A stretch of DNA of 64,000 nucleotides from a virus. The translations under genes were made by a program, and so were the position numbers. Location: positions 1-64,000 of IMG/VR virus record IMGVR_UViG_3300028393_000048; one strand, given 5' to 3'. Shown here one piece after another: positions 2,669 through 27,614 of the stretch. The notes beneath the pieces are model-generated. The model ran no database searches and was not told where the DNA came from. It saw nothing but the letters and a program-made list of their open reading frames with translations. Position 1 is the first letter of the stretch. Each line of letters opens with the position of its first letter.

Positions 2669-3109
2669 TTATTTCTGAAGTAATTTTTTAATCTCTTCTA
2701 ACTCTTTTTTGAGTTGACTATGATCATCTTTTAATTTACTATGATCTTCTAGTGCTTTCTCATCTAACCTTAAATCATCTTTTAATTGAATTAAAACTTC
2801 ATGTAACTGAAGCATTAGATTGTATGCATTTTGATCTAACTCAACATCATGTAACAGGTGCGCTCTATCTTTTTCTGATTGCCTTGTGGATGACATTAGA
2901 ATTAAAGGCGTGGCATAAGCAGCTTCAAAAGAAAGAAAAAGATTCAGAAGAATAAAGGGATAAGGATCAAAATGACACAATCCTAATATATTTACGATTA
3001 ACCATATCGTCAGTATGGTCGATTGAATTATAATAAATCTCCAAGATCCTATAAACTCCGCAATTTTATCGGCTAATTTAATACTGAGTTCTTTAAGATT
3101 GACAAGCAT
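2669..3109 (-). CDS. DUF1003 family membrane protein
   Basis: 146 residues matching the DUF1003 pattern: GSWRFIIIQS, a Trp/Asn-containing first membrane helix, FDPYPFILLNLFLS, AAYATPLILMS, then RQSEKDR and DVELDQNA. Two transmembrane helices (about residues 22-44 and 52-74) are followed by a charged coiled-coil tail. The family is common in bacterial genomes and its function is unknown. It is antisense to the flanking tRNAs and faces the promoter of the next plus-strand operon. Probably host-derived. Confidence 0.85.
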   Translation of the reverse strand: MLVNLKELSIKLADKIAEFIGSWRFIIIQSTILTIWLIVNILGLCHFDPYPFILLNLFLSFEAAYATPLILMSSTRQSEKDRAHLLHDVELDQNAYNLMLQLHEVLIQLKDDLRLDEKALEDHSKLKDDHSQLKKELEEIKKLLQK

Positions 3110-11243: not shown

Positions 11244-11272
11244 TTGACACCTCCTCTTAAATCATATAGAAT
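11244..11272 (+). promoter_or_regulatory. Promoter cassette (TTGACA-17-TAGAAT)
   Basis: Copy of the repeated cassette with spacer beginning CCTCCTC. The predicted +1 is 11279, exactly the next ATG. Confidence 0.75.
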
Positions 11273-11991: not shown

Positions 11992-12021
11992 TTGACACTT
12001 CCTGTTAAATATCATTATAAT
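11992..12021 (+). promoter_or_regulatory. Sigma70-like promoter (TTGACA-18-TATAAT)
   Basis: Both hexamers are consensus. The predicted +1 is 12028, exactly the ATG of the secreted-protein gene. Confidence 0.75.
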
Positions 12022-12027
12022 AATATT

Positions 12028-12282
12028 ATGAAAAAAATATTAATAATGTTAATTTTATCTACCTCAGTATTTGCTGAAGATAGTATAAAGTCAACACCAA
12101 CTCCAACTCCTCGACCCACGCCAGTTACTAAGCAAACCCTCCCTAATGCCAAACCAATTAAACCTATTGCATCAACACCCACACCTACCCCTCGACCTGC
12201 AATAACCCCTATTCCTAAGCCAAAAAAGAGTCCTTACCCAACACCACCTCCAGTAAGAGGTACAGCATACAGTATTATATGA
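12028..12282 (+). CDS. Secreted Pro/Thr-rich protein
   Basis: 84 residues from ATG 12028. A clear signal peptide (MKKILIMLILSTSVFA, cleavage before ED) precedes a mature chain dominated by Pro, Thr, Lys and Arg with two TPTPTPRP repeats. Such chains resemble wall- or envelope-spanning linkers. It overlaps the next, also exported, gene by four bases; the two probably act together at the cell surface. No family assigned. Confidence 0.65.
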   Translation: MKKILIMLILSTSVFAEDSIKSTPTPTPRPTPVTKQTLPNAKPIKPIASTPTPTPRPAITPIPKPKKSPYPTPPPVRGTAYSII

Positions 12283-12869
12283 TTAGATTCCTTGCTATAT
12301 TTCTACTCTTTGTTAGTAATACTTTTGGTACTGTAATTCTTGTTAATTCTGAAGATACTTTTAATGTTGGAAAGGGTAATAATCCACAGACTGTAGGAAC
12401 TGCTGTTGTCCTAAATGGGGGAACCTTATTATTGTCCAATGGAGGTAATAGGACTGCTGATAAAACTATTAGTCAAACATTTGGAACCCTTACTCTAACA
12501 GCTAATAGTACAATTGATTTTACTACAATCTCTGGTAATACTCTCCTTACTTTTTATAGTCTTATAAACATTAATAATTATATTCTATCTATTATTAACT
12601 ATAATCCTAATAATACATCAGAGGTTTTAAAATTTACTACTGTCCCAAATAGTAGTAACTTAAAAAATATAGTATTCTATAGTGGTACTAATTTCCTAGG
12701 AACTGGACAAGCTTTTGGTAATCAGATTTGTCCCTTACCTGAACCTAACACTATTATAGCTGTCTTGTTGCTTTGTTTTGTATTACTAGGATGGTTTGTT
12801 TTTAAACATAGAACAAACTTTAAATACCCAATAGAAGTTATTCGTAGAGTATTGTTTGTTTGGATTTAA
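12279..12869 (+). CDS. PEP-CTERM-like exported protein
   Basis: 196 residues. An N-terminal signal peptide (about 1-17) is followed by a beta-rich Asn/Thr/Gly chain resembling autotransporter or passenger repeats (VVLNGGTLLLSNGG). Near the end is LPEP (153-156), a hydrophobic span (about 158-174) and basic KHR, which is the layout of the PEP-CTERM signal processed by exosortase in some Gram-negative bacteria. Unusually about 18 residues follow the basic cluster. Exosortase processing is inferred. If right, the phage uses the host's surface-sorting system. Confidence 0.65.
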   Translation: MIRFLAIFLLFVSNTFGTVILVNSEDTFNVGKGNNPQTVGTAVVLNGGTLLLSNGGNRTADKTISQTFGTLTLTANSTIDFTTISGNTLLTFYSLININNYILSIINYNPNNTSEVLKFTTVPNSSNLKNIVFYSGTNFLGTGQAFGNQICPLPEPNTIIAVLLLCFVLLGWFVFKHRTNFKYPIEVIRRVLFVWI

Positions 12870-13157: not shown

Positions 13158-13424
13158 ATGAAATATAAGACAGAAATACATAATGGGTTTTCTTCAGTGT
13201 ATGTATCTATACTTGATGAAAATGATAATTGGGTATGTCATTTGAATTTTAACAAACAATATATCGAAAGTTTGGGTAATAGATATGATAAAGATGGTAT
13301 GTCAAATGCTTCTTGGGACCCAAGAAGCATTGCTTCTTGGGAGTTAGATGCAAATTTAAATAAAATTTTATGTAAGGTACAAGATAAACTTGGCTTGGCT
13401 AAATCACTTGACACCTCCTCTTAA
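13158..13424 (+). CDS. Hypothetical protein ending SLDTSS
   Basis: 88 residues; a strand-rich N-terminal half (SSVYVSILDENDNWVCHLNF) and a helical C-terminal half. A perfect DNA palindrome lies within it and encodes NASWDPRSIASW. The final LDTSS is supplied by a partial promoter cassette, as in the gene before. Family unknown. Confidence 0.55.
   Translation: MKYKTEIHNGFSSVYVSILDENDNWVCHLNFNKQYIESLGNRYDKDGMSNASWDPRSIASWELDANLNKILCKVQDKLGLAKSLDTSS
13305..13341 (+). repeat. 13-bp perfect inverted repeat plus extra half-copy
   Basis: AATGCTTCTTGGG and CCCAAGAAGCATT are separated by a single A, and TGCTTCTTGGG follows again at 13331. The whole lies inside a coding sequence. It could be a protein binding site or a hairpin in the mRNA. 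Confidence 0.7.
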
Positions 13425-15153: not shown

Positions 15154-16278
15154 ATGTTTAATTTATTCCCAAAAAAGAAATCTCTTGATAAGATCATAGA
15201 AGATTCTAATTTAACTCCAGCTTGGTTTCCAGACGTTTGGACTCCAACTCAAACTCCTAGTATGTTACAAGCACAAAATGAATTAATTGAACAGTTTCTT
15301 AAAGAAAACCATGATCTTAAAAAAGAAATCCAAGAGCTTAAAAGGGATGTTCACCAACCAGAACTTTGTAATGAAAAGATTTTTAAACTCAGAGAAGAAA
15401 ATGTAGAACTTAAGAAGATTCTTATAGATCTCAAAAAGGAGAATGCTGATCTTATTGAAATACTTGCAAAATACAGAGATGGATATCAGGGTTCATGTTA
15501 TGCTTGTGAACCAGTTGGTGAACTTAATCAAAAGCTTGAAAAAGAAAAAACCGAACTTCTTGAGAAGTATAATGGTTTTCTTACAATGGGTGGTCTAAAG
15601 TATATGGAAGCAAAATTACAAATCGTGCAGAACAATTATACAAAGTGTGCTAAAGAAAGAGACGAGTATAAACATCAACTGAATGCAGCTAATAAGGAAA
15701 GGAATGAGTATAAAGAGTCATTTGAGAGTATGAAAAAAGCTTATGAACAAGAAGCTAAAAGTGCTGATAGAGAGTTAGAAAAGAGACTTGAACTGGAGAA
15801 AGAAGTAGAGAAGCTAAAAAAAGATATTGTTGATTATGTCTTTGAGAAGGATAATCAGGTTAATTTTTTTGAAGAAGAGTTAAAGAGATTAAAATCTATT
15901 ACAAAAGAAGAATATGATAAGATACCTGTTGTTGGTAGTGCTGATATAATTGGAAATTTACTTCAAAAGGCTAATGATTTAGTAGAGGGTGTTGAAGTAG
16001 ACTTAGACAAATCTTTAGATGAACAATGTGATAAGGAAGATGAGACTGCTTTTCTTAAATGTGCTTGTGGTGATTGTCATGAGAAAACAAAACAATATAA
16101 TCAATTCCAAGAATTTGAAGAATGTAAGATTACAGGTCATAAAATTCCTAAAGAAAAGTCTTGGGAAGAAGCAGCATCTGATTTAGCTTTAAAAGTTACA
16201 AAGCTTGAAGAACAATTAAAAATTCACAAACTACTGATTGATCAACTTAACAACTATATACTATGCCTAAAGCATTAA
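15154..16278 (+). CDS. Long coiled-coil protein
   Basis: 374 residues, of which about 40-115 and 130-260 are heptad-rich Lys/Glu/Leu coiled coil. CYAC (around residue 113) and [10 protein letters not shown] (around 307) may bind metal. The N-terminus ([16 protein letters not shown]) is Pro/Trp-rich. It resembles a filament or scaffold protein more than an enzyme. Its last 16 bases overlap the gmd gene, so the two are coupled. Function unknown. Confidence 0.6.
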
Positions 16279-17237
16279 TTACAGGTATCACGGGTCAAGA
16301 TGGATCATATCTGGCGGAACTTTTGGTTGATAAAGGTTATGAGGTTCATGGTGTAATCCGTCGATCATCTAATTTTAATACCCAGAGAATTGAAAATATA
16401 TATGATAAATTACATTTACATTATGGTGATCTATCAGATTCATCTCAATTGACAAGATTGTTATATGATCTGCAACCTGATGAGGTTTATAATCTTGGAG
16501 CACAGAGTCATGTGAGAGTATCTTTTGATATTCCAGAATATACTGGTGATGTAACTGGTCTTAGTACAATAAGATTACTTGAAGCCATTAAAGAAACAAA
16601 CTCAAAGGGTATTCGTTATTACCAAGCATCATCTTCTGAAATGTTTGGTAAGGTTCATGAAGTGCCACAGATTGAAACCACACCATTTCACCCTCGTTCT
16701 CCATATGGCTGCGCAAAGGTGTTTGCATATTGGTTGACCGTTAATTATAGAGAGTCATATGGTATCCATGCTTCCAATGGTATTCTTTTTAATCACGAAT
16801 CGCCTCGTCGTGGTGAAACTTTTGTTACTAGAAAAATTACCCGTGCTGCAACCAGAATTAAAATGGGATTACAGAAAGATCTTTATCTTGGTAATTTAGA
16901 TGCAAAAAGAGATTGGGGGTATGCAAAAGAATATGCAGAGGTGATGTGGCTCATGCTTCAACAAGATAATCCAGATGATTATGTCTGCGCTACCAATGAG
17001 ACACATACAATTAAAGAATTCTGTGAAGAATGTTTTGGCTTGCTTGATCTTGATTGGAAGGAATATGTAAAGTATGATCAAAGATACGAGAGACCAGCGG
17101 AAGTTGATCTTCTTATCGGTGATCCATCAAAACTCAAAAGACAGATTGGGTGGGAGCCAAAAGTCAAATTTAAAGAGCTTGTCAAAATTATGACAGAAGC
17201 AGATTTAAAATTAGCAAAACATGAATCTCAATTCTAA
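16263..17237 (+). CDS. gmd: GDP-mannose 4,6-dehydratase
   Basis: 324 residues of the short-chain dehydrogenase family. It converts GDP-mannose to GDP-4-keto-6-deoxymannose. Nucleotide-binding GITGQDGSY at the N-terminus, [18 protein letters not shown] with the catalytic Ser/Glu region, and SPYGCAK (YxxxK) are all present, with [16 protein letters not shown] and RDWGYAKEY typical of Gmd. Full length for the family. It overlaps the fucose synthase gene by 17 bases, giving a complete two-step pathway. Confidence 0.95.
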
Positions 17238-18150
17238 AATATATGTAGCAGGTCACAAAGGTTTGGTTGGTTCAGCTGTGGTTCGTTTACTTAAAGAAAA
17301 AGGTTATAGTAATATCATAACTAAATCTCGTGATGAATTAGATCTTACTAATCAGACAGCTGTTAATAATTTCTTTGCTGAAAATCTCCTTGATGTTGTT
17401 ATCATGGCAGCAGCAAAGGTTGGAGGTATTCATGCAAACAATACATATCCTGCGGAATTCATTTATGATAATTTGGCGATTACTTCTAATACAATTCATG
17501 CAGCATATAAAAATAATGTGAAGAGATTTTTATTTTTAGGTAGTTCCTGTATCTACCCAAAACATGCGGAACAACCAATGAAAGAGGATTGTCTGTTATC
17601 ATCTTCTTTGGAACCAACTAATGAAGCATATGCTATTGCAAAGATTGCAGGTCTTAAACTCTGTCAATACTATCGTAAACAATATGGTGTGATGTTTCAT
17701 TCATTAATGCCAACTAATCTTTATGGTATAGGAGATAACTATCATCCAGAAAACTCTCATGTATTACCTGCTCTTATTAGAAGATTTCATGAAGCAAAAA
17801 TAAACAACTCTCCAACAGTAACAGCATGGGGTACTGGTAGTGCTAGTAGAGAGTTTCTTTGTGCAGATGATTTAGCTGAAGCTATCTTAACAAGTCTTTT
17901 AATTAAAGATCCGTTAGATTGGATTAATGTTGGTTATGGTTCTGATGTTACAATTAAAGAACTAACAGAAATTGTTGCAAGCGTTGTGGAATATAAAGGA
18001 ACAATTATTTGGGATAAAACAAAACCTGATGGTACACCTCGTAAGCTTTTAGATAGTTCAGAGATATTTAAAACAGGATGGAAACCAAAAATAAATCTTG
18101 AAGAAGGTATAAAACTAGCGTATAATGATTTTATATTATGCCAAAAGTAA
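17221..18150 (+). CDS. fcl: GDP-L-fucose synthase
   Basis: 309 residues. An epimerase/reductase that turns the Gmd product into GDP-L-fucose using [18 protein letters not shown] is the nucleotide-binding loop; [14 protein letters not shown] carries the Ser/Cys region; YAIAKIAG provides Yxxx[27 protein letters not shown] is diagnostic. No glycosyltransferase is in the window, so the acceptor of the fucose is unknown; a capsid or host surface glycan are options. Confidence 0.95.
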
Positions 18151-27585: not shown

Positions 27586-27614
27586 ATTATAAATTTTTTA
27601 TTTAAAAAAGTCAA
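27586..27614 (-). promoter_or_regulatory. Sigma70-like promoter (TTGACT-17-TATAAT)
   Basis: Minus strand. The predicted +1 is 27579, exactly the ATG. Confidence 0.7.

Follow-up and report, generated by a model that had tools for sequence, protein, structure and literature searches.

A T4-like phage carries a gene for a PEP-CTERM-like protein of probable Verrucomicrobiota origin

We found that a T4-like phage encodes a protein, ORF2, that appears to be a host-derived, shortened Verrucomicrobiota PEP-CTERM protein, kept by the phage as cargo. This identity, combined with a route through the host's exosortase, is the reading that we favor and consider reasonably probable. The gene occurs in a virus record of 76,077 bases (G000); the window, i.e., the whole stretch of DNA that was analyzed, corresponds to positions 1-64000 of this record. 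The window encodes a T4-type terminase and, from a reading of the translations, what we take to be a tail sheath, a UvsX-like recombinase, a gp41-like helicase, PhoH and a ribonucleotide reductase. The phage has a GC content of 32.5% and a GC3 of 23%.

Proteins that are 100% identical to window proteins are encoded on contigs from other samples, namely L080 (3300009182), L001 (3300009684) and L005 (3300009154), so the same phage is present in several metagenomes. L080 starts near window position 13195, and the PEP-CTERM gene lies outside its reach. The translations at window positions 16263-18150 resemble a GDP-mannose dehydratase and GDP-fucose synthase pair, which may alter host surface sugars or the phage's own glycosylation.

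The features of the locus, in window coordinates, are as follows.

11992..12021, + strand: promoter of the early type, TTGACA-N18-TATAAT (consensus scans, sequence)
12028..12282, + strand: ORF1, 84 amino acids, a hydrophobic N-terminal signal followed by a Pro/Thr-rich chain
12279..12869, + strand: ORF2, 196 amino acids, PEP-CTERM-like protein (sequence, TIGR02595)
12279..12329, + strand: ORF2 residues 1-17, signal peptide MIRFLAIFLLFVSNTFG (predicted by hydropathy only)
12330..12731, + strand: ORF2 residues 18-151, beta-rich passenger; its motif LTLTANSTIDF is that of PEP-CTERM proteins in Verrucomicrobiota
12735..12812, + strand: ORF2 residues 153-178, sorting signal consisting of LPEP (153-156), a transmembrane helix (157-175) and KHR (176-178) (TIGR02595, hydropathy, structure model)
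12813..12866, + strand: ORF2 residues 179-196, C-terminal extension of 18 residues, TNFKYPIEVIRRVLFVWI, atypically long

The first-pass annotation had described the 12279 product as a signal peptide, a beta-rich passenger and LPEP followed by a membrane span and KHR, and hydropathy, the structure model and TIGR02595 confirm this layout. It was equally right that the overlapping upstream gene encodes a Thr/Pro-rich chain with an export-type N-terminus (20 Pro and 12 Thr in the 67 residues past the hydrophobic part), and that about 18 residues, an atypical number, follow the basic cluster of ORF2: the TIGR02595 match ends at residue 178 of 196. The PEP motif is carried by residues P152-L-P-E-P156, and the transmembrane helix comprises 19 residues. 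By hydropathy, ORF2 is hydrophobic only at residues about 1-23 and 153-178, with no transmembrane segment between them. Among the 184 ORFs of at least 60 amino acids in the 76-kb record, ORF2 alone combines PEP, a hydrophobic stretch and basic residues clustered close to the C-terminus, and none of 200 residue-shuffled proteomes contained this layout.

PEP-CTERM proteins are typically high in Thr and Asn and low in Lys, Arg and Cys (Haft 2006, PMC1569441). The ORF2 passenger contains 15.7% Thr, 15.7% Asn, 8.2% Ser, 0.7% Cys, 3.0% Lys and 0.7% Arg, compared to phage averages of 5.9, 7.2, 6.7, 1.2, 8.7 and 3.2%, respectively. When PEP-CTERM models were searched, as the first-pass annotation had proposed, TIGR02595 (PEP_CTERM in NCBIfam, with a curated cut-off of 16 bits) matched at borderline strength. 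The whole of ORF2 scores 15.0 bits by hmmscan (E 0.035 over 18,950 models), which is 1 bit below the cut-off, and a six-frame search of the record yields 18.8 bits (E 3.5e-4), which is above it. Taken alone, this score is borderline. The Pfam PEP-CTERM model does not match ORF2, and neither Pfam nor PHROGs assigned it to a family. Fold comparison of an AlphaFold model (pLDDT 78, pTM 0.65) against the PDB and BFVD gave no significant match; weak PDB matches include beta-helices and the IcsA autochaperone cap, from which we draw no claim.

Given that TIGR02595 alone is borderline, it is the homology of the passenger that settles the PEP-CTERM identity of ORF2. When 84,980 species genomes were scanned with ORF2, without any limit on phylum, all eight confirmed relatives belonged to Verrucomicrobiota (Spartobacteria, Chthoniobacter, Opitutales/Opitutaceae and others). 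Each of the eight has a C-terminal PEP-CTERM, and several have PATR beta repeats. The alignment with ORF2 spans the relatives' last passenger domain (LTLTANSTIDF) through the PEP motif, at up to 39% identity. A profile trained on just the eight host proteins, without the phage protein, scores ORF2 at 80.7 bits; with ORF2 included, the domain is found in 56 of 388 Verrucomicrobiota genomes. Every genome with one of the eight relatives encodes exosortase, in 1-4 copies, and no exosortase was found in the G000 record or in 14 other viral records. These results bear out the earlier suggestions that ORF2 is a PEP-CTERM-like protein and gives a hint of the host lineage. Judging from the PEP-CTERM gene family only, Verrucomicrobiota is the probable host phylum.

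The C-terminal extension, in which the AlphaFold model has a helix at residues 182-195, deserves separate mention. Fewer than 10 residues extend past the model in 87% of PEP-CTERM proteins, and dramatically long tails are perhaps non-functional (Haft 2006, PMC1569441). Across 49 frames from Verrucomicrobiota, the stretch after PEP has a median length of 27 residues and a 95th percentile of 37, compared to 40 in ORF2 and 51 in the Spartobacteria protein L062. Although unusual, the tail is paralleled naturally within the lineage that seems to be the source of the gene.

The ORF2 gene has a GC content of 29.8% and a GC3 of 16%, compared to 51-67% GC for the relatives' loci. This phage-like composition points to an old resident or a well-adapted gene. 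It also speaks against an assembly chimera, i.e., a bacterial PEP-CTERM gene fused to a phage contig, as do the same phage promoter element flanking the gene on both sides, the overlap of ORF1 and ORF2 and the comparable genes on other phage contigs. We found no independent contig spanning the gene, as a chimera would predict, in a scan that may omit records nearly identical to that of the window. We regard a chimera as very improbable and have set it aside.

No close phage orthologue of ORF2 was found. Scans of viral contigs and named phages, with profile A2 among the queries, recovered no direct homologue; such scans depend on exact matches to short peptides and overlooked the G458 protein described below (VIDF for TIDF), making this weak evidence. 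A further 65 related phage records, identified through their terminase or neighboring genes, gave no PEP-CTERM match, so the gene is dispensable cargo. The genes around ORF1 and ORF2 are shuffled among related phages and the early region is highly variable, which fits the expectation for a cargo region. These observations, along with the shortness and divergence of ORF2, could also reflect a host gene fragment that recombined into a hypervariable early region and is translated without being important to the phage. However, ORF2 retains an intact signal peptide, frame and sorting signal despite a base composition that is fully phage-adapted, the gene has its own strong promoter and other phages have separately acquired such genes. 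Incidental cargo of this kind is unlikely, in our estimation.

The promoter at 11992 is a perfect consensus and belongs to the ORF1/ORF2 operon. With only 6 nt between the -10 box and the ATG of ORF1, a leaderless transcript is probable. The two ORFs overlap by 4 nt (ATGA), and this arrangement probably couples translation of ORF2 to that of ORF1. We propose that the two are a pair, based on the overlap and on their predicted shared export. Model searches, including PHROGs, found no family match above chance for ORF1, which has no Cys and hence no lipobox Cys.

Two small overlapping exported ORFs, of which the first is Pro-rich and the second has a periplasmic domain and a C-terminal transmembrane helix, recall lysis proteins such as Rz/Rz1 or a unimolecular spanin. 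The missing lipobox contradicts a spanin: there is no lipobox cysteine in either protein, with no Cys in ORF1 or in the N-terminal region of ORF2. Moreover, the ORFs have an early-type promoter, the ORF2 passenger has its homologues among bacterial surface proteins and there is no match in PHROGs. A lysis function is scarcely credible.

Promoters with a TTGACA/T-N16-18-TATAAT-like consensus occur on the + strand at window positions 3099, 6045, 10005, 11244, 11553, 11992, 12880, 13123, 14737, 15120 and 19136, and on the - strand at window positions 27614 and 62562 and record position 70955. The distance from the end of their -10 box to an ORF's ATG is 3-9 nt, and they probably give rise to leaderless early mRNAs. 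Promoter-like sites at most 12 nt from an ORF's ATG number 14 in the record, compared to 1 in the reversed sequence. A repeated element, TTGACACCTCCTCYTAAA(G/T)CAYATAGA(AT), is located 5′ of consecutive small ORFs at window positions 11244, 11925, 12880, 13123 and 13408 (+ strand). In some preceding ORFs it doubles as coding sequence for the C-terminus LDTSS*, and CACCTCCT within it resembles the 3′ end of 16S rRNA.

PEP-CTERM genes recur in other viral contigs. DNA encoding VPEP-x-TYG is present at 26 loci in 2.9 million viral contigs, mostly in PEP-CTERM-like ORFs, and TIGR02595 scores above its cut-off in 13 of 14 examined records with such loci, once per record; all of these records lack exosortase. 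The recurrence rests on five records (G458, G466, G469, G467 and G460), as some of the others are not proved to be phage. The G458 record (70 kb) encodes a 379-amino-acid protein of the same passenger family as ORF2, which scores 75.0 bits with the phage-free model. Its longest open frame overlaps a PhoH gene, a tail sheath gene is 6 kb away and the terminase is of the T4 type. G466 (80 kb) has a 350-amino-acid protein with up to 65% identity to Verrucomicrobiota proteins over nearly its full length (only Verrucomicrobiota were searched). The G466 gene adjoins a phage-type glycosyltransferase gene, with dNMP kinase and HNH genes nearby. At this locus (L248:9406-11954), the PEP-CTERM gene directly adjoins two glycosyltransferase-like genes, which places surface protein and surface sugar cargo together. 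In G469 (13 kb), homologues of window ORFs 5023 and 6080 lie immediately upstream of the gene for a 306-amino-acid protein with a third passenger; no homologue of this passenger was found in 388 Verrucomicrobiota genomes. The G458, G466 and G469 proteins all have full-size passengers and ordinary tails.

The two remaining records, G467 and G460, have T4-type terminases and ORFs of 53 and 56 amino acids that lack a signal peptide and consist of about 25 residues and the PEP-CTERM. These microproteins (L244:8772-8933 in G467 and L245:9314-9484 in G460) end in HxPVVPEPSTYG, a transmembrane helix and basic residues. They are possible exosortase decoys. A second scan for microproteins yielded only a match in L259, which we attribute to chance.

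A phylogeny of 47 domains places ORF2, with weak support (91/62 to 94/83), alongside L062, L063 and L160, and the G458 domain as the sister of a Verrucomicrobiota protein (100/98). The ORF2 and G458 domains are not joined in any bootstrap tree. Since the two phage domains lie apart, PEP-CTERM genes were acquired more than once. We tentatively propose, while holding it to be doubtful, that the phages of exosortase-positive bacteria, several T4-like lineages included, repeatedly recruit PEP-CTERM sorting signals. The resulting proteins would form a class of host-takeover proteins that act through or on exosortase, either remodelling the surface or jamming the enzyme. Such a class would take in the full-length captures of G458, G466 and G469, the one-domain ORF2 and the signal-less microproteins of 53-56 amino acids in G460 and G467.

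Under the favored reading, the ORF1/ORF2 operon would be transcribed early, and both products would cross the inner membrane by Sec. ORF2 would then halt in the membrane through its C-terminal helix, and the host exosortase would recognize LPEP, process the protein and move or attach it to the cell surface or exopolysaccharide. Displayed in this way, ORF2 could coat or change the surface of the infected cell and block the adsorption or injection of a second phage, i.e., act in superinfection exclusion or receptor masking. This is the purpose that we rank first, although even at best its likelihood is clearly below an even chance. Altered aggregation or exopolysaccharide is a possible near variant, and we saw no feature in the ORF2 sequence that favors exclusion over another surface function.

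Alternatively, abundant and poorly cleaved ORF2, with its extended tail, might occupy the host exosortase, leaving host surface proteins (possible receptors or defences) unsorted. Such a decoy would account for a shortened passenger with a retained sorting signal, for the unusual length of the tail after the basic cluster and for the perfect-consensus promoter, and the G467 and G460 ORFs consist of little beyond the PEP-CTERM. However, the tail is even longer in the closest cellular homologue, L062, full-size passengers and ordinary tails such as those in G458, G466 and G469 are needless for a decoy and a natural exosortase decoy is undescribed in the literature that we searched. For ORF2, we think it improbable that this is the function. 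The full-size passengers favor display, and the signal-less microproteins favor the decoy idea in their own phages.

We found no account of phage-encoded PEP-CTERM proteins in the open-access literature searched. The nearest mention concerns hot-spring viruses, whose horizontally transferred cellular proteins include members of the TIGR03118 family (PMC11003980). Few phages of Verrucomicrobiota are known, and P8625 was described as the first lytic one (PMC4642752). ORF2 and the separately acquired genes in other viruses suggest that infecting phages exploit the machinery with which the host sorts its proteins. It was comparative genomics that defined exosortase sorting; should its substrates be carried by phages, a direct experimental handle is gained through infection, expression and superinfection assays, and sorted surface proteins become a visible arena of phage-host conflict. 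In addition, a PEP-CTERM passenger can serve as a host marker that points unassigned T4-like contigs to a host phylum.

Among known systems, T4 Imm and Sp, T5 Llp and Cor are phage superinfection-exclusion surface proteins that rely on intrinsic membrane signals or lipoprotein signals instead of exosortase. Like ORF2, they are small early phage proteins of the membrane or envelope, and exclusion is the function proposed for ORF2; we claim no sequence similarity. SasX of a staphylococcal prophage is a phage-borne sortase (LPXTG) surface protein and resembles ORF2 in that the phage supplies a protein destined for display by the C-terminal sorting enzyme of the host. By contrast, SasX involves a Gram-positive sortase, a temperate phage and a role in colonisation, whereas ORF2 belongs to a T4-like phage and would depend on exosortase in a Gram-negative host. 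Sortase is not a homologue of exosortase (PMC3237569).

The PEP-CTERM/exosortase (EpsH) sorting system itself (TIGR02595/TIGR02602, PMC1569441) shares with ORF2 the signal peptide, a passenger rich in Thr and Asn but with little Cys and few basic residues, and the PEP, transmembrane helix and basic cluster, and the ORF2 passenger is homologous to those of exosortase-positive Verrucomicrobiota. However, ORF2 is encoded by a T4-like phage without exosortase, its passenger is shortened, 18 residues follow the end of the model and its score is at the cut-off. Of the Verrucomicrobiota PATR/'TANSTIDF' PEP-CTERM proteins, L062 (Spartobacteria UBA6821, an open frame of 662 amino acids at a contig edge) is 39% identical to ORF2 over 128 amino acids, which correspond to the last passenger domain and the PEP motif, and its tail is also long. 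These proteins are mostly larger (open frames of about 235-4000 amino acids) and many have PATR repeats, whereas ORF2 consists of one domain with its own signal peptide.
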